Under the pieces are notes generated by a model. That model ran no database searches and was not told the origin of the DNA. It saw nothing but the letters and a program-made list of their open reading frames with translations. A stretch of DNA of 64,000 nucleotides from Sphingomonas sp. CCH10-B3 (GTDB lineage: Bacteria > Pseudomonadota > Alphaproteobacteria > Sphingomonadales > Sphingomonadaceae): assembly GCF_001556185.1 (NCBI RefSeq), contig NZ_LSIJ01000105.1:1-64000 (forward strand). The letters run 5' to 3'. Both the position numbers and the translations under genes were made by a program. This document shows, piece after piece, positions 45,595 through 52,473 of the stretch (the stretch's first letter is position 1; each line of letters opens with the position of its first letter).

Positions 45595-46176
45595 TCATGG
45601 CGCGCCGCTCGCCTCTCGACGTGCAGCCACCGTGCAATTCGGCCGCGGCGGCGCTGCAACGGGATCGCCCGGCAGCGCGAACTTGAGGCGCCAGGTTCGC
45701 CACGCTTCGGCGACGGCGCCGGTGCCGGGGAACAGGTCGTCGAGCGTGTCGTCGGGACGCGCGGCGACCGTCTCGAACGCCCAATGAGCGACCACTTCGG
45801 GTTTCGCGCCGGTAAGCCCACGGCGCAGCGTGATCGGGCATTCGATCCAGTCACGCAGGACCAGCCGCTTGCTTACGACCGGCTTGCGCGCGGGCTTCAC
45901 GATGACGGGTTCCCACGCATAAGCGACCGGCACGTTGCGCTTGAACGCGGCAAAGCCTTTCACCCAGGCCATCCACCGCGCGCCGGTCTCGCGCACGAGC
46001 GGCGCGAGCACGGCGACCGATTCCGGCGTCGCGGCGGCATGCAAAATCCAGCCGTCATAGTCTCGCTGGAGCCGCTCGATCAGCGCGGGATGATCGACCT
46101 CGCCCGCATAGTCGGGATGATCGCGATAGAGATGCGCGCAGCCGATATAGGGCGGATCGGCATAGGCGATCTTCAC
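45595..46176 (-). CDS. Small DNA methylase-like protein (DPPY)
   Basis: 193 residues. The motif YADPPYIG is almost at the N-terminus (residues 6–12), then IERLQRDYDGWILHAAATPESVAVLAPLVRETGARWMAWVKGFAAFKRN, and LDDLFPGTGAVAEAWRTWR near residue 150, which resembles the AdoMet-binding FxGxG motif, though with a proline. The DPPY-first order suggests a compact beta-type or MT-A70-like amino-methyltransferase without a long target-recognition domain. It could modify the ICE DNA against host restriction. ATGA overlap with the lytic transglycosylase gene. Confidence 0.75.
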   Translation of the reverse strand: MKIAYADPPYIGCAHLYRDHPDYAGEVDHPALIERLQRDYDGWILHAAATPESVAVLAPLVRETGARWMAWVKGFAAFKRNVPVAYAWEPVIVKPARKPVVSKRLVLRDWIECPITLRRGLTGAKPEVVAHWAFETVAARPDDTLDDLFPGTGAVAEAWRTWRLKFALPGDPVAAPPRPNCTVAARREASGAP

Positions 46177-47060
46177 GGCTGCCTCCGCCCCGACAGCGCG
46201 ACGAACAGGCTGTTCGCGGGCGGTTCGACCGCAGCGCGCATGTCAGCCGCGCGTTCGCCGGACGACGTTTCCGGTGCGGCCGGATCGCCGTTCGGCCGCG
46301 CCGCGAACAATGCAGCCCTGCGCCATGCAAAAGGATCGGACGGCGGTGCGGCAGCAAGCCGGCTGTCGTCCGCGCCGCCTATGATCGACGCGAGCTTTGC
46401 GAGATAGGCGCGCGTCTCGGCGGGCAGCGGACGGCCGCGCGATAGATATTCGTCGTAGCGGCCCGGCCCCGCATTATAGGCCGCCAGCATTGCCATCGCG
46501 TTGCCGTAGCGGTCGTGCATCGCGCGCAGGTAAGCCGCGCCCGCCATGATGTTGTCGCGCACATCATAGGGATCGCGTCCCAGCCCGTGGCGCGCGCGCA
46601 AGCTCGCCCAGGTGCCGGGCATGATCTGCATGAGGCCCATCGCCCCGGCCGTCGAGACCGCGCGGACATCGCCGTTGCTCTCGACGCGCATCACCGCCCA
46701 TATCCAGCTTTCCGGGATGCCGAAGCGCCGCGCGGCGTCGGCGACGTGAACGGCATAGGGATGGCTGGCTGCCGTGCGTTCGGCCGGCGTGTCCTGTGCC
46801 CGCACAGCGTTCGGCCCGATGCCGGACGACAGCAGCAGGGCCGCGAGCAGGACGGCCAATCCGCCCCCGCTCTTACGCCAGCCTGCCAGCGTGCTCGCTG
46901 CGGTAAAGGGTGCGCGCGATGCGCCGGCCGTGGGCCGCCCCCGGATCAAGTCCGGGGCAGACTCTTGACCTTCGCTGCGCGCGCCGGTCAGCCTGCGACC
47001 GAGCGGGACGGAGGGATGCGGCTTTTCCGCGAACAAAGGGATGATGATCGAAACAGCCAC
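46173..47060 (-). CDS. Conjugative lytic transglycosylase
   Basis: 295 residues if started at GTG 47060, 3 bp after the DUF736 stop. The catalytic SLT domain is clear: YAVHVADAARRFGIPESWIWAVMRVESNGDVRAVSTAGAMGLMQIMPGTWASLRARHGLG, with the catalytic glutamate in RVES; later NIMAGAAYLRAMHDRYGNAMAMLAAYNAGPGRYDEYL. A signal helix (LAVLLAALLLSSGIGPNAVRAQ) is internal, beginning near residue 69; the residues before it come largely from a REP-like repeat, so the true start may be nearer, for example a TTG just before LAVLL. The enzyme opens peptidoglycan for the mating channel. Confidence 0.88.
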   Translation of the reverse strand: MAVSIIIPLFAEKPHPSVPLGRRLTGARSEGQESAPDLIRGRPTAGASRAPFTAASTLAGWRKSGGGLAVLLAALLLSSGIGPNAVRAQDTPAERTAASHPYAVHVADAARRFGIPESWIWAVMRVESNGDVRAVSTAGAMGLMQIMPGTWASLRARHGLGRDPYDVRDNIMAGAAYLRAMHDRYGNAMAMLAAYNAGPGRYDEYLSRGRPLPAETRAYLAKLASIIGGADDSRLAAAPPSDPFAWRRAALFAARPNGDPAAPETSSGERAADMRAAVEPPANSLFVALSGRRQP

Positions 47061-47063
47061 CGA

Positions 47064-47396
47064 TCAGCTCCGGTCGTCGCGCGGCCGGGGGCGCTTCCAT
47101 GACAGCCGGAACGTCCGGCCATCGTCGTCGGCGCGGAACAGAACCGGCCGGAACGGCGCCCCGAAGAGCGGGCTGTCGATCTCCAGCGCGATGTAATTGC
47201 CCGCGCGTTCGCCGACCCGTTTCCATGCGCCGCCGACTTCCGGGCCGTCCTCGTCGTCGAGGTGGACGCGGTAATCGGGCGCGTTCTCGGCGTCGCCCGG
47301 ATCGATCGCGACCAGCACGATCTGCTCGTCGACACCGAAATACCGGGCGCGCCCGGCATAGCCATTGGCGGTGGGTTCAAAGATATTCGTCGGCAT
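47064..47396 (-). CDS. DUF736 protein (ICE copy 1)
   Basis: 110 residues from the ATG at 47396, which lies 20 bp inside the end of traF. Sequence: IFEPTANGYAGRARYFGVDEQIVLVAIDPGDAENAPDYRVHL, then GGAWKRVGERAGNYIALEIDSPLFGAPFRPVLF and FRLSWKRPRPR. DUF736 proteins are small beta-rich proteins encoded by many plasmids and ICEs; their role is unknown. A second member is at 56374–56673. Confidence 0.85.
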   Translation of the reverse strand: MPTNIFEPTANGYAGRARYFGVDEQIVLVAIDPGDAENAPDYRVHLDDEDGPEVGGAWKRVGERAGNYIALEIDSPLFGAPFRPVLFRADDDGRTFRLSWKRPRPRDDRS

Positions 47397-47955
47397 GGCC
47401 AATCTCCTTGGCTTCGGGGGTGGAAGGCGATTGCGACGGCGCGCGCAGATGCAGCGGCGTCGCGCGGCCGATGACGGCGGACGCCGGCAGCGGGCCGAAA
47501 TAGCGGCCGTCGAGGCTGTCGGGGACGGACGGGTTGAGCAGCAGCAGTTCGCCCGGTTGCAGTGTGCGGCAGCCCCGCCAGACCGGCAGCGGGCGGCCCC
47601 GGCCGTCACGCGCGCGGGCGCTGGCGACGGACTGGCTATCGACGCTCACCACGGCGCCGATGCGGCACACGCGCTGCCCGGCTTTCGCGGCGACATGCTT
47701 CAGCAGCGGCACGCCCTCGGGCAGATAGCCGCGCGCCGAAAGCCAGCGGGAAAGCCGCTTGGGCGGCGTGACGGCGACCAGCACACCGATAGCGGGATCG
47801 CGGTCGGGATGGATGCGGTAGAGCCCGATCGGCGCGCTGGCGCTGGCGTTCCAGATCACGCGCGGGAAAGGATCGGCGACGGCGATCGCGACGAACGCCG
47901 CGGCGAAGGCGGACGCGGCGGTGGCCGTCGCCATGACGTAGCGGCGGCGCGTCAC
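47377..47955 (-). CDS. traF: TraF-type S26 signal peptidase
   Basis: 192 residues. An N-terminal membrane helix (TATAASAFAAAFVAIAVADP) is followed by VIWNASASAPIGLYRIHP, where the Ser in the SAPIGLY block is the catalytic serine, and LPEGVPLLKHVAAKAGQRVCR with the catalytic lysine; the end has LLLNPSVPDSLDGRYFGPLPASAVIGRATPL. TraF matures the TrbC pilin in such systems (established for RP4). ATGA overlap with the DUF2840 gene. Confidence 0.9.
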   Translation of the reverse strand: MTRRRYVMATATAASAFAAAFVAIAVADPFPRVIWNASASAPIGLYRIHPDRDPAIGVLVAVTPPKRLSRWLSARGYLPEGVPLLKHVAAKAGQRVCRIGAVVSVDSQSVASARARDGRGRPLPVWRGCRTLQPGELLLLNPSVPDSLDGRYFGPLPASAVIGRATPLHLRAPSQSPSTPEAKEIGHADEYL

Positions 47956-48539
47956 CCTTCGATCTCCTTGCGGCGAAGCCAGGCGCGATGCCGCTCCAGC
48001 GTGTAAGGGCGCGGCTGGTGTCCCGCGGCGATGCGGTTGTGGACGTGGCGCCAGTGCTCGGGCGCCGCGTCGCAGGGATCGACGCCCGCCGTCTCCACCG
48101 CGTCGATCGCGGCGAGCACCTGCTGGACCTTGGGCCAGCTCTCGATGTGCAGGAGGATTTCGCCGCCCGGCCGCACGAACGGCAGCGTCGTATAAGGCTC
48201 GCCCGGCGTGACCGCGCGCACCACGTCGATGCGCGAGGCGATCGTGCCATAGTCGTTGGCGGTCCAGCGGACGAAGGCAAACACCGCGCCCGGCCGGAAG
48301 CTCATGACGCGCGTCCGGCGTGTGACGATGCGTTCCTGCGCGACGCGGCCGAAGCGTATCCAGTGCTCCAGCTTCTTTTCGATCCAGGTCAGTTCGACTT
48401 CGGTCAGCCGCGATCGCGATGCCAGCGCCGTTGGTTCTGTCGGCGTTCGGGCGGCCTGCGCCTGCTCCGCCGCGCGGCGGCGCAGCGCGGCTTCGAACCC
48501 GCTGAAGTCTATGCGCTGCGGATGCGCGGGATCGCTCAT
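47952..48539 (-). CDS. DUF2840 protein
   Basis: 195 residues. The DUF2840 core reads LTEVELTWIEKKLEHWIRFGRVAQERIVTRRTRVMSFRPGAVFAFVRWTANDYGTIASRIDVVRAVTPGE, followed by LLHIESWPKVQQVLAAIDAVETAGVDPCDAAPEHWRHVHNRI and HRAWLRRKEIEG. Found next to traF and repA/parA in this ICE class; function unknown. Both ends overlap neighbours by ATGA. Confidence 0.87.
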   Translation of the reverse strand: MSDPAHPQRIDFSGFEAALRRRAAEQAQAARTPTEPTALASRSRLTEVELTWIEKKLEHWIRFGRVAQERIVTRRTRVMSFRPGAVFAFVRWTANDYGTIASRIDVVRAVTPGEPYTTLPFVRPGGEILLHIESWPKVQQVLAAIDAVETAGVDPCDAAPEHWRHVHNRIAAGHQPRPYTLERHRAWLRRKEIEG

Positions 48540-49879
48540 CGTTCGTCTCCGGTGATGTCGGGGGAGGTTCGCCCGAGCACGACGTCGAGCGCGGCTTCGG
48601 TGCGCAGGATGGCGCGGCCGATGGCTTCGGGGATTTGCGGGAGAACGGCGTCGCCGAACGCCTCGACGATCAGGCTGGCCGCAGCCGTCCGCTTTCCAGC
48701 GCCGATCGCAACGCGCGTGCCAGCCACCCAGGCGGAAAGCCCATCATCCAGCCGTAGGTGATGGGCAAGGCCGCCGTTCCAGTCAGCCCACGGCTCCGCA
48801 GCATCGCCGCCAGCGCGCGGGCGCCCGCCCATTTGTCCGGCGCGCGATCCGTCATCGCGCCGTCCATCACCGCGTCCATCGTCGGCGATTTCCGCCGATC
48901 GTAGGCCGGACTCCAGCCGTCCATCCGGCTGTCGCGCTTCGTCGGGGTGGGGAGGATTTCCGCCGCGTGGCGCAACAGGTTCGGCGTGTCGATCTGCGCC
49001 TTCGCGCCGTTCGCCCGGCGTCCCGTTTCGATCTCCTGCCGGCTCAATCTCCGTCCGCCGTTCGGTTTGACAGGCGTCGGCATCATGCCCGCGTGCCGGC
49101 TCGCATGGCCCTGCAACTGGCTGAGCACATCGCCCCGGCCGCCCTTGTCCGCATCCGATTTGCGCGGCGTCGCGAGGATCATGCGAAGCGGATATGTCGA
49201 TCCTGCGCCGCCGCCCGCGCCGTCCCTCATCCCGTCCGTCGCCATCGGCGTCGGCAGCCTGTTCTCGCGAAACAGGTCGAACAGACCCGATTCCTTGAGG
49301 GCCGTCCGTGCGCCCGATCCACCCTCCAGCCGGATGCCGCCTTGCTGGGATTGCGATACCGGCGTCGGCAAGCTGGCCTGGGTCGTAGCCGATAAGCCAG
49401 GACCGCTTGCGGACATGGTTGGCGCCGACATTTTCAGCAGCCACCACGCACGGTTCGCAGGCGTAGCCGAGCGTTTCCAGGAGAAGGAGCAGCCGGTCAG
49501 CGCCGCGAGTTCGCAGATTAGCGCTGTTCTCAAAAGCGAACCAGCGAGGGCGGCACTCTCCGACCAGCCGGACGGCTTCGAGGTAGAGGCCCGACCGTTC
49601 GCCTTCGATCCCCCTGCCTTTGGTGTTGGCGCTGGAGATGTCCTGGCACGGCGGCGAACCGACGATGATGTCGGGCAGGAATCCAAGTTCAGAAACAAGT
49701 CGAGCTGCCGTGAGGGACCGGACATCCGCGTAGAGTCTGACATGGGGATTGTTCTCCGCGTAGAGGATGCGGCGCCATTCGACGATCTCGCAGGCGGCGA
49801 CGGTGACGAATCCGGCGCGGTGCAGGCCGAGCGACCAGCCGCCCGCCGCGGCGCTGAACAGGTCGAGCGCGCGCATCAT
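48536..49879 (-). CDS. Dcm-like cytosine-5 DNA methyltransferase with frame exchange in the recognition region
   Basis: 447 residues in one open frame. The first 160 residues carry motif I (RALDLFSAAAGGWSLGLHRAGF), motif IV with catalytic Cys (GSPPCQDIS), motif VI-like FENSANL and motif VIII-like RKRSWLIGY; the end has GDAVLPQIPEAIGRAIL (motif X). Between about 49400 and 48670 the frame gives Asp/Ala/Gly/Arg-rich sequence (ADADGDGRDEG…) with poor codon bias. The frame shifted by +1 has very high GC at third positions and reads as repeats of LPTP-type sequence ending in YGWMMGFPPGWL, as in other phage/ICE Dcm proteins. Either two compensating shifts or overlapping genes exist. The ATG overlaps the PAPS reductase-like stop. 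Confidence 0.75.
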   Translation of the reverse strand: MMRALDLFSAAAGGWSLGLHRAGFVTVAACEIVEWRRILYAENNPHVRLYADVRSLTAARLVSELGFLPDIIVGSPPCQDISSANTKGRGIEGERSGLYLEAVRLVGECRPRWFAFENSANLRTRGADRLLLLLETLGYACEPCVVAAENVGANHVRKRSWLIGYDPGQLADAGIAIPARRHPAGGWIGRTDGPQGIGSVRPVSREQAADADGDGRDEGRRGRRRRIDISASHDPRDAAQIGCGQGRPGRCAQPVAGPCEPARGHDADACQTERRTEIEPAGDRNGTPGERREGADRHAEPVAPRGGNPPHPDEARQPDGRLESGLRSAEIADDGRGDGRRDDGSRAGQMGGRPRAGGDAAEPWADWNGGLAHHLRLDDGLSAWVAGTRVAIGAGKRTAAASLIVEAFGDAVLPQIPEAIGRAILRTEAALDVVLGRTSPDITGDER

Positions 49880-51024
49880 TCGCAAAGCCCGTATTCGCTG
49901 TCGCAGAGCAGGCCGTGCTCATCGGCGTCGCGCTGCTCCTGCGCGAGGAACAGGTCGTAGTTGCGGCCGCCCCGGCTGGTGCGCGACCACGCGATCGCCC
50001 TGTCGATCGTCGCACGTCCATGATCGGCGGGATCGCCGGGCACGGTCGGCGCGGGCAGCAGGGATGCCGGCGCTCCCGATATCGCGGTGCGCCGCGAAAC
50101 GAGGCTGACCAGCCGTTCCCACTCCCGCACGCGATCGACTTCCGCGGGAAACCGCATGGCCCAGGCGCGCAGTTCGCGCTTCCTAACCATGATGCAGGTC
50201 GAGCAGCCGACCCGGCTCATCCCCATCGTGTAGAGCGGGTTATGCCGGAGTCCGTGGCGCTCGGAGATGGCGAAGGCGTCGGCCGCCGACCAGCGAAAGA
50301 TGGGCCGGTAGAGCACCTTGCGGGCGCCGGAGGGATGCCGCACCGACTGGATCGGCGGCTTCTTCGCCCGCGCCGGGCTTTCGTCGGCGCGCTCGCCGAT
50401 CCAGTCGATGACCGAGATCCCCGCATCGAGCAGCGGACGCTTGCGATGCATCATCGGGATCAGTTTGGTCTCGTCGGTGCAGAAGCGCGTTTTGGTGCCG
50501 GGAAACCGGCCGTGCAGCATCGCCATGTCGAGGAACGGGATGCCGGTGGGATGCAGCAGCTCGAGCGCGCGGTCGATCAGATGATCGGGAACCGGGGGCG
50601 AGACCAGGACGGGACATTCGCACGCGGCGAGCCATTGGCCTTTCGTGAGCCTGCCTGCCTGCCACGCGGCCCGGCGCTGGTTGCACGCGCCCTTATGGCG
50701 GGTCCGCCGCTTCTCCTTCGACCATTCCTCGCGCAGCATCGCGCGCTTGCGGGCGAAGGCCGCCGCGTCTGTGAGCCCCGGCACGTCGTTCGCCGAGACC
50801 GTCTCGATACACAGGCCGGTGCGTTGTCGCAGCCAGCCGTCGAGATACGCGATGTGGTCGAGCGTGATCGGGTTCTCGTGGCCGTTGTCTGCCGAGAGGA
50901 ACCGCGGCGCGCGGTTGCCGAACGCGGCAAGCCCCCTGCGCTCGATCCGCTCGACCATCCGGCAAAGGACGGCCTGGCTGTCCTTGCCGCCCGAGATGCT
51001 GCCGAAGTGCTGGGCGGCGATCAT
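49876..51024 (-). CDS. Phosphoadenosine phosphosulfate reductase-like (PP-loop) protein
   Basis: 382 residues from the ATG at 51024; a GTG at 51078 would add 18 residues. The PP-loop SISGGKDSQAVL is near the N-terminus. FLSADNGHENPITLDHI follows, and in the second half PPIQSVRHPSGARKVLYRPIFRWSAADAFAISERHGLRHNPLYTMGMSRVGCSTCIMVRKRELR has the CxxC expected for iron–sulphur binding; two more cysteines end the protein (LLCDSEYGLC). PAPS reductase-like proteins of phages and mobile elements are often linked to DNA or nucleotide modification (compare DndC). Its product is unknown here; it is coupled to the Dcm-like gene. Confidence 0.8.
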   Translation of the reverse strand: MIAAQHFGSISGGKDSQAVLCRMVERIERRGLAAFGNRAPRFLSADNGHENPITLDHIAYLDGWLRQRTGLCIETVSANDVPGLTDAAAFARKRAMLREEWSKEKRRTRHKGACNQRRAAWQAGRLTKGQWLAACECPVLVSPPVPDHLIDRALELLHPTGIPFLDMAMLHGRFPGTKTRFCTDETKLIPMMHRKRPLLDAGISVIDWIGERADESPARAKKPPIQSVRHPSGARKVLYRPIFRWSAADAFAISERHGLRHNPLYTMGMSRVGCSTCIMVRKRELRAWAMRFPAEVDRVREWERLVSLVSRRTAISGAPASLLPAPTVPGDPADHGRATIDRAIAWSRTSRGGRNYDLFLAQEQRDADEHGLLCDSEYGLCE

Positions 51025-51150
51025 GGCCGCGGTTCCGGCCCGCGCCGCGTAACACGGTGCCGGGATTGATCGCCGCACGCAAAAGGCGTAGTAGTATAGC
51101 GTAGGGGAGACGGCGGATTTACTGCCCGATACTTCGCGTCGTCTCGCGAA

Positions 51151-51347
51151 TTATCCACAGCACCAAAGCGCGTTAGAAAGAATACGAAGTATTCTTTACT
51201 GTTAGCATAGTTAGAAGAGAGCCGATTCCGCGAGCGATTCCAGAAGCTTGTGCGGAGGTCCGGTTTTTTATAGGCCGAGTCAGCGGTTTTTAATCGGCCG
51301 AGTCCGGCGGTTTTCAATAGGCCGAGTCTCATGGCCGGTTATCCACA
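51151..51347. other. Candidate replication origin (iterons and DnaA boxes)
   Basis: Two exact DnaA boxes, TTATCCACA, lie at 51151–51159 and 51339–51347. Between them are three 21-bp direct repeats at 51261, 51284 and 51308, each ending in GGCCGAGTC after GGTTTT and an AT-rich centre, with a period of 23–24 bp as for iterons. An AT-rich stretch with the perfect palindrome AAAGAATAC–GAA–GTATTCTTT (51177–51197) sits on the far side. The repA gene ends inside the last box. This is the layout of an iteron origin. Confidence 0.7.
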
Positions 51348-52210
51348 GCCAGCCCCATGACCCGCGCCGCCTTCTCGAACGGATCGGCGGGCACGGGCGC
51401 GAAGGTCAGCCGCTCGCGGCCGAACGCCCGCTCGATCGCCAGCGCGTAGCCCGGCAGCGACTGGCGCTGCACGATGGCGCGCAGCTCGAACGCGAACTGC
51501 TTCAAGGGCGAGAGCGCGCCGGATTTCAGGTGAAGGTGCGGGACGTCGAAGCTCCAGCCGCCTTCCTGCTGGCCGCCATGCTTGCGCACGATCCGGTAGA
51601 GCCAGCGTTCCAGCCCGCCCGTTAGGTCGAAATAGGCCCGGTCGATGGTGAGCACGAACGTGCGGTCGACGACGCCGGCATAGAACCAGTCCGGCAGGAT
51701 CAGCTCCAGTCCAAGCGGACGGCCGTCGCCGTCGAGCCGTTCCTGCCACTCGTTGATCCACGAGAAGCGATGGCGTCGCCGCTGGTGCTGCTGGCGGATC
51801 GAGGTGGCGACCGTGGTGGATTGCAGCCGGTCGAGCGCGGCCTTCAGCCGGTCATAATGATCCTTGCCGGTGCCTCGTCCGGTGAATGTGAGGATTTCGT
51901 GCGGCGTCGTCGCCATCAGGCGCGAGGTCGGCAGCCCCGCGTCGCGCGCGGCGACGATCTGGCTCGCCGCCCATATCAGCACGTCGGCGTCCCATATGGT
52001 CGCCATGCCATGTTCGGGCACGGCCTCGACCGATATCCAGGTCGCGCCCATGCGGAAATCGATCGGCGTCACCCGCCTGCGCTTGGCGAGGCTGAAGAAC
52101 GGCCAGGCCATGAGGTCCTGGGCATCGCGCGGCGCGATATCGCGCCCGAGCGAGGGGAACAGCGCGAGTTGGGCGCGCTCGCCGGAACGGGAGGCGGTGC
52201 GCGGCATCAT
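51329..52210 (-). CDS. repA: Replication initiator protein A
   Basis: 293 residues. Family sequence: MAWPFFSLAKRRRVTPIDFRMGATWISVEAVPEHGMATIWDADVLIWAASQIVAARDAG, then HEILTFTGRGTGKDHYDRLKAALDRLQSTTVATSIRQ and LELILPDWFYAGVVDRTFVLTIDRAYFDLTGGLERWLYRIVRKHGG. Initiators of this RepA type occur in many alphaproteobacterial ICEs and plasmids and presumably bind the iterons found just past the gene's 3' end. ATG overlaps the HTH gene stop. Its presence suggests the excised circle can replicate. Confidence 0.9.
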   Translation of the reverse strand: MMPRTASRSGERAQLALFPSLGRDIAPRDAQDLMAWPFFSLAKRRRVTPIDFRMGATWISVEAVPEHGMATIWDADVLIWAASQIVAARDAGLPTSRLMATTPHEILTFTGRGTGKDHYDRLKAALDRLQSTTVATSIRQQHQRRRHRFSWINEWQERLDGDGRPLGLELILPDWFYAGVVDRTFVLTIDRAYFDLTGGLERWLYRIVRKHGGQQEGGWSFDVPHLHLKSGALSPLKQFAFELRAIVQRQSLPGYALAIERAFGRERLTFAPVPADPFEKAARVMGLAVDNRP

Positions 52211-52473
52211 CGGCGGCTCTGCGTGATCGCCGCATCCCGCTGCGGCATGAGATCGTTCTGGCCGGGGTCGGACGTGGAATATTTGGTGCCGAGGTCGGCC
52301 CAGGCGCGCAGGTCGTCGACCGAATAGACCACCCGTCCGCCGATCCGGCGATAGGCCGGGCCGCTCCCGAAATAGCGGTGCTTCTCAAGCGTGCGGCCGG
52401 AAAGGCCAAGGAAGCGCGCCGCCTCGGGGGTCCGCAGGTAGCGGGGCGGAAGGGTCACGGGCGGTCGGGACAA
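52207..52473 (-). CDS. AlpA/MerR-like helix-turn-helix protein
   Basis: 88 residues. LRTPEAARFLGLSGRTLEKHRYFGSGPAYRRIGGRVVYSVDDLRAWADLGTKYSTSD is the winged helix-turn-helix of the excisionase/AlpA type. In ICEs of this class it precedes repA and is thought to act as a directionality factor or regulator. It is coupled to repA by an ATGA overlap. RBS: GAGACGCC-type sequence only weakly matched. Confidence 0.87.
   Translation of the reverse strand: MSRPPVTLPPRYLRTPEAARFLGLSGRTLEKHRYFGSGPAYRRIGGRVVYSVDDLRAWADLGTKYSTSDPGQNDLMPQRDAAITQSRR

Follow-up and report, generated by a model that had tools for sequence, protein, structure and literature searches.

The dcm-like gene considered here lies on the reverse strand at positions 48536..49879 of a 64,000-nucleotide stretch of DNA from Sphingomonas sp. 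CCH10-B3 (contig NZ_LSIJ01000105.1, referred to below as the window), and it probably consists, judging from its sequence and that of its homologues, of two nested genes that jointly encode one 5-methylcytosine (m5C) DNA methyltransferase of the M.EcoHK31I kind. The longer open reading frame (ORF), alpha, of 447 amino acids, corresponds to the dcm frame (frame A) and contains the motifs I-VIII, an unselected spacer and motif X. The shorter one, beta, of 357 amino acids, is entirely nested in alpha on the same strand (48670..49743), is read one base later (frame B = A+1), and comprises an N-terminal tail, a helix-hairpin, a series of LPTP modules and motif IX. The comparison of homologous loci demonstrates a selection specific to each frame, the avoidance of stop codons in both frames, an internal start codon, complementary motifs, and the recurrence of this arrangement.

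The functional organization that can be proposed for this gene pair is as follows. Motif X and the catalytic domain with motifs I-VIII would come from alpha, whose middle part of about 230 residues would act as a spacer for which the lack of a stop codon is the sole selected property detected. Beta, predicted to begin at an internal ATG at dcm codon 46-47, would supply a helix-hairpin dual-coded with alpha, followed by the LPTP recognition modules and motif IX. Both polypeptides are probably translated separately off one messenger RNA and would assemble into the active enzyme, in which beta would read the DNA, recognize the target and carry the specificity.

A first line of evidence is provided by the base composition of the gene. 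The GC content at positions 1/2/3 of the A codons is 0.67/0.49/0.77 for codons 1-166 of the window gene and 0.75/0.52/0.83 for codons 396-447, with values of 0.84/0.65/0.59 in between, for codons 167-395 (49381-48695), which means that the third-position bias has moved to the frame one base later, to come back at motif X. Such a displacement of the bias at the third codon position and its return had been noticed in an earlier, sequence-only reading of this DNA, which also held that the LADA/ADADG strings of one frame and the LPTP strings of the other are the same bases. The coordinates of both readings do coincide, LADAGIA (49372-49352) being read from the bases of SLPTPVSQ (49374-49351), ADADGDG (49255-49235) from those of RLPTPMATD (49260-49234), and LDDGLSAW (48751-48728) from those of YGWMMGFPPGWL (48756-48721), which contains MMGFPPGW.

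The evolutionary analysis is based on loci retrieved by searching genome contigs (54 loci) and viral contigs (26) with the B protein and viral contigs (53) with the A protein, together with loci from the genomes of relatives, phages and plasmids. An N-terminal dcm match occurs in 167/169 collected sequences, and frame A is open from the start to motif X, according to the script criteria, in 136 of these 167; the other 31 correspond to 18 ordinary Dcms (L013-L030), broken or frame-swapped copies, loci cut by the end of a contig, and L012, whose motif X was missed by the pattern. Of the 136 open-A loci, 96 are distinct in sequence; joining at 90% nucleotide identity across 60% of the length reduces these to 69 representatives. 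Since these representatives were selected for an open A, the less conditioned counts matter: A is open to motif X in 75/80 loci found with B (broken in L052, L081, L083, L087 and L113), and B reaches motif IX in 48/53 loci found with A (absent in L157, L161 and L164, the two others being fragments). All eight copies named here are broken or frame-swapped and display changes of register between A and B.

The ratio of non-synonymous to synonymous changes (pN/pS) was calculated between 92 distinct sequences, using pairs that share 75-97% identity (50-99% in the case of motif X), with 1992, 1010 and 4092 pairs for the catalytic region R1, the recognition region R2 and motif X, respectively. Over R1 (motifs I-VIII, dcm codons 1-166; 49382..49879 of the reverse strand), A is the selected frame, with a ratio of 0.28 versus 1.58 in B. 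The situation is reversed over R2 (48695..49381, reverse strand), where B, with 0.23, is the selected frame and A, with 2.02, is simply held open. At motif X, AFGDAVLPQIPEAIGRAIL (48605..48661, reverse strand; residues 407-425 of frame A), the ratio amounts to 0.14 in A and 2.34 in B. Within R1, the successive blocks give A 0.21 and B 2.27 (codons 1-46), 0.46 and 1.40 (53-72), 0.22 and 2.44 (73-92), 0.18 and 2.23 (93-104), 0.22 and 2.40 (105-118), 0.38 and 0.51 (119-132), 0.56 and 0.70 (133-150), and 0.21 and 2.31 (151-166). Taken block by block, these ratios thus indicate that selection acts on A over the motifs I-VIII and X, on B in the recognition region, and on both frames over codons 119-150, a dual-coded segment (49430..49525, reverse strand) that corresponds to the helix and β-hairpin predicted for beta. 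The sequence-only reading, which located the catalytic motifs I-VIII and X in a single frame, agrees with the values found for A, and the per-frame comparison over homologous genes that it had suggested attributes the recognition region to B and not to the 447-residue frame. Alignments were built on the B translation for R2 and on the A translation for R1, which favours those frames; the stop tests described below are alignment-free.

Stop codons are avoided in both frames. Synonymous shuffles of B in the 69 representatives predict 236.0 A stops in R2, where 0 occur, the third frame of the same shuffles exhibiting 614 stops versus 576.8 expected. Reciprocally, shuffles leaving both A and its codon usage intact (66 loci) predict 161.5 B stops in R2, with 0 observed again and 591 versus 599.3 in the third frame. 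In the frame-A test, a B stop falling within the last 20 R2 codons was trimmed; in L098 the pattern used for motif X matched too early, and in L012 it found nothing. Along the catalytic region, the part ahead of codon 51 holds 85 B stops where about 47 would be expected; the first ten codons account for 53 of these, many of them from an ATGATG start. From codon 51 to about codon 176, B contains a single stop, where about 75 are expected and the third frame shows 296 versus about 341; conserved codons cause large swings in the third-frame bins, and single bins should not be over-read. Finally, the single changes of R2 that are silent in B (631 pairs) comprise 15709 A-nonsynonymous changes versus 14730 expected, and 0 A stops versus 888 expected. 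As a reading of these sequence counts, the alpha spacer would have to stay open, the nature of its residues being apparently of no matter.

The boundary of the B stop depletion coincides with a B-frame ATG located at dcm codons 46-52 in 68/69 representatives, L100 having GTG instead. In the window, this start codon (49741..49743, reverse strand) spans dcm codons 46-47, and a possible, weak Shine-Dalgarno sequence, GGAG, can be read 10 nucleotides ahead of it (49754..49757, reverse strand). Frame B accordingly opens at the ATG 49743, within the catalytic region, and not just from about 49400. The codons that create the ATG are favoured, as CAT for His (25/26 versus 65/155 elsewhere in R1; Fisher p 6e-8) and TAT for Tyr (32/48 versus 64/267; Fisher p 2e-8), both p values being overstated because the sequences are related.

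The motif content of the two frames is complementary. A motif IX-like string occurs in B of 69/69 representatives, at 48721..48756 (reverse strand) in the window, and three pattern matches in A were judged spurious; among the ordinary Dcms L013-L030, 14/18 have the string in A and 0/18 have it in B. The match of the window frame A to the C5-methylase family PF00145 is restricted to residues 2-169. The frame-B ORF matches phrog_1008 (E 8.9e-13; two stretches, the best one covering residues 51-173), and 263 of the 7994 candidates scored are homologous to it at E<=1e-3. A low-confidence model of beta displays a helix (residues 59-83) and two strands (86-93 and 99-106). The LPTP modules, in the window (49374-48931) as well as in the beta homologues, look repeated, duplicated and reordered from one homologue to another, as if recognition units had been shuffled.

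The same arrangement recurs far from Sphingomonas. Eighteen distant loci were picked for host diversity, 12 from 107 phage records (60 listed) and 6 from 8 plasmid records, and in 18/18 of them a dcm is found in the frame one base before B. Fourteen of these loci have a GC content of 0.42-0.61; they come from phages of Vibrio, Bacteroides, Salmonella, Pseudomonas and Stenotrophomonas, a gut phage, an unassigned virus, and plasmids of Leptospira, Acinetobacter, Bacteroides, Nostoc and a methanogen, and their longest B open run is 176-262 codons, a length that only 0-12 of 500 A-keeping shuffles reach in 13/14 cases. A relative of the Salmonella phage gene was also observed in 4/5426 E. coli genomes. 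Among 32 genomic loci of the beta family (from 39 fetched; L171 and L174-L179, which are gene pieces of G001 and G142, were excluded, and L207 and L225 represent one gene), 31 sit inside a dcm gene, in every case at +1, and the remaining one, L222 (E 4.4e-4, 4 stops), is devoid of dcm and looks spurious. With a dcm one base before B in 18/18 and 31/32 loci, the possibility that LPTP proteins also occur as independent genes found no support in the loci examined. In the Pseudomonadota sample, phrog_1008 is present in 27/398 genomes (0/14 controls) and PF00145 in 223/398.

Depending on the locus, three layouts can be distinguished: a nested layout with motif X in alpha, as in the window; a layout in which alpha stops after motif VIII and beta contains the LPTP modules, IX and X, as in the Streptomyces phage Samy (L194, 1766-3107); and a layout with everything in one frame, as in Moonbeam and Rabbitrun. 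In a phage and plasmid clade (L181, L184, L185, L186, L189 and L190), B continues beyond motif IX; the tail that these loci share (DKF/DSF..WL) is read from the motif X bases, a stretch that may be dual-coded too. By frame arithmetic, the annotation of 17 records retains A only in 12 cases, B only in four (L180, L184, L185 and L195, which list the beta frame as a hypothetical protein and omit the catalytic dcm frame), and both in Samy, as two adjacent methyltransferase genes.

Several observations weigh against the reading as two nested genes of one enzyme. The sequences are related, and the counts given above are not independent but inflated by kinship. A Shine-Dalgarno-like tetramer precedes the beta ATG in just 36/68 representatives, and most of R1 outside codons 119-150 lacks amino-acid selection on beta. 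The B open run of L195 is equalled in 46/500 shuffles, which chance could produce, and the actinophage loci are individually indecisive (L183 24/500, L187 55/500, L194 160/500); among the 31 genomic loci, the beta match of L198, L204, L224 and L225 contains one internal stop. The controls of the single-change test are also depleted in B stops, with 169 versus 1511 expected for codons 1-48 and 1603 versus 2293 at motif X; the stop expectations of this test are therefore too high, and the shuffles represent the main evidence for stop avoidance, the single-change test being used only for the complete absence of stops in R2 (0 of 888) and the R2 amino-acid counts. With regard to structure, AlphaFold gives a poor model for beta on its own, with a predicted local distance difference test (pLDDT) score of 53.3, a fold search with it against the PDB gave no match at E<=0.001, and the LPTP modules are mostly unconfident in the model of a single-chain relative too, so that a folded recognition domain is unsupported by the models. 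The beta profile similarly found no match at E<=1 among the sequences of solved structures (PDB).

A recoding event, also envisaged by the sequence-only reading, is an unlikely explanation. A +1 shift near motif VIII (about 49385), perhaps followed by a shift back near motif X, would give one chain made of I-VIII (A), recognition region and IX (B), and X (A). The selected frame does switch there and back, some relatives (L183, L187, P0123) are single chains that keep everything in one frame, and in the database proteins P0006, P0039, P0048 and P0067 frame A continues into B. A frameshift, however, would require neither frame to be open on its unused side, whereas B is open about 115 codons upstream of the switch (1 stop versus about 75) and A throughout R2 (0 stops versus 236); moreover, B has its own ATG in 68/69 representatives and is selected upstream of any shift, in the dual-selected codons 119-150. 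The four database proteins look like single-chain fusions, either real or due to assembly errors.

Overlapping genes in which beta, rather than completing the methyltransferase, fulfils a separate function such as regulation or anti-restriction are quite unlikely. The lack of a match for the beta profile among the sequences of solved structures and the private N-terminal tail of beta would suit such a function, but A lacks motif IX exactly where beta carries it, the C-terminus of beta is homologous to single-chain methyltransferases, and a convincing beta without dcm was found in 0/32 loci examined.

Compensating indels, as a sequencing error or as a local event in a decayed dcm, have a negligible probability: although five of the 80 loci found with beta are broken or frame-swapped (L052, L081, L083, L087 and L113), the switch is common to 69 representatives and is therefore not an error of this assembly, each part is under purifying selection, and the same nesting is kept in other phyla, so that conservation refutes this option of the sequence-only reading. 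A dcm frame that alone would be real, B staying open through a high GC content and conserved A codons, is just as negligible, since A-preserving shuffles give 161.5 B stops in R2 where none is seen, 13/14 distant loci (GC 0.42-0.61) have a B open run that such shuffles rarely reach, and A lacks amino-acid selection in R2, which refutes it for R2 and codons 119-150 in spite of the frequency of long open alternative frames in high-GC genes, of a B pattern in R1 that is partly a shadow of A, and of the four single loci (L183, L187, L194 and L195) where chance is possible. More generally, the readings as sequencing error, pseudogene, A only or B only are ruled out by the stop counts, the single-change test, pN/pS and the shuffles of distant loci. 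The overlapping gene, which the sequence-only reading had listed among its options, is the one upheld by the proper ATG of B, the stop-free state of both frames in R2 and the selection of codons 119-150 in both.

In the window, the dcm ORF overlaps the preceding and following ORFs by a few bases, and the beta ORF possesses a private N-terminal tail. The neighbouring genes (46173-52473) encode a PAPS-reductase-like protein, a replication initiator (RPA), an HTH_17 protein, a DUF2840 protein, an S26 signal peptidase and an SLT transglycosylase, a set that would fit an integrative or plasmid-like mobile element; no restriction enzyme occurs among the six dcm neighbours scanned in the window. The methylation could play a protective or regulatory role for the mobile element.

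It seems reasonably probable that phages and mobile elements commonly use the two-frame layout, that this design is old and extends to several phyla of bacteria and one plasmid of an archaeon, and that it places the DNA-recognition half entirely in the second frame, the target recognition domain (TRD) attributed to dcm being an unselected spacer. Databases would then split the halves into unrelated families, Dcm on the one hand, phrog_1008 and the LPTP hypothetical proteins on the other, because annotation keeps one of two overlapping ORFs. In this respect, the proposal that ADADG-type Dcm entries are out-of-frame readings is correct insofar as the residues belong to a frame without amino-acid selection, but the ORF is real and stop-free, and the entries are not artefacts. 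If true, these pairs would rank among the longest and most widespread same-strand overlapping genes, with a selection divided between the frames by domain. They would give the study of overlapping genes a case open to testing, where either frame encodes certain domains and does no more than tolerate the remainder, and where a dual-coded stretch lies between. The layout would also indicate the DNA-reading half of these enzymes, located in the frame usually dropped by annotation, and would explain a phage protein family that is named hypothetical or misleadingly; specificity predictions made from the dcm translation would rest on the wrong residues.

Compared to the known C5-methyltransferases (C5-MTases), the window enzyme differs from the HhaI-like ones, which have the motifs I-X in a single chain, by the lack of a credible motif IX in A and by a PF00145 match that ends at residue 169. 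The single-chain C5-MTases of mycobacteriophages (Estave1, Moonbeam) contain LPTP modules, a motif IX (EWMMGWPAGW) and a motif X, and are homologous to the beta C-terminus, but all their motifs occur in one frame and one chain. The family phrog_1008, named "DNA methyltransferase", is the beta family, a name which hides that its members are read one base off the catalytic dcm.

Two-subunit enzymes offer a closer comparison. M.EcoHK31I recognizes YGGCCR and M.AquI recognizes CYCGRG. The beta subunit of M.EcoHK31I, as reportedly described by Lee, Kam and Shaw in 1995, is encoded inside alpha in another frame, and the window locus resembles it in this feature, its small-subunit ORF being located in the other frame within the gene of the large subunit. 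According to PMC3404938, M.AquI is a naturally two-polypeptide C5-MTase. Its small subunit contains the distal variable region and motifs IX-X, whereas motif X of the window stays in alpha; the layout of Samy (L194) is nearer to M.AquI than that of the window. No report of the two-frame layout in phages was found in the open PubMed Central (PMC) literature, including passages of PMC3404938, PMC3439449 and PMC6456624, a corpus outside which most subscription journals lie and in which a two-frame C5-methyltransferase is described for the restriction enzyme partner M.EcoHK31I only. The larger subunit of M.EcoHK31I, as given in PMC3404938, contains motifs I-VIII, X and the predicted TRD, the smaller one motif IX only. 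By this division of motifs, with I-VIII and X in the larger polypeptide and IX in the smaller alone, the window locus is to be placed by analogy with M.EcoHK31I. It differs in that the TRD of M.EcoHK31I is predicted in the larger subunit, whereas R2 of the window is selected in the smaller one and unselected in A (pN/pS 2.02), which suggests, contrary to the prediction given in PMC3404938, a TRD located in the smaller subunit.
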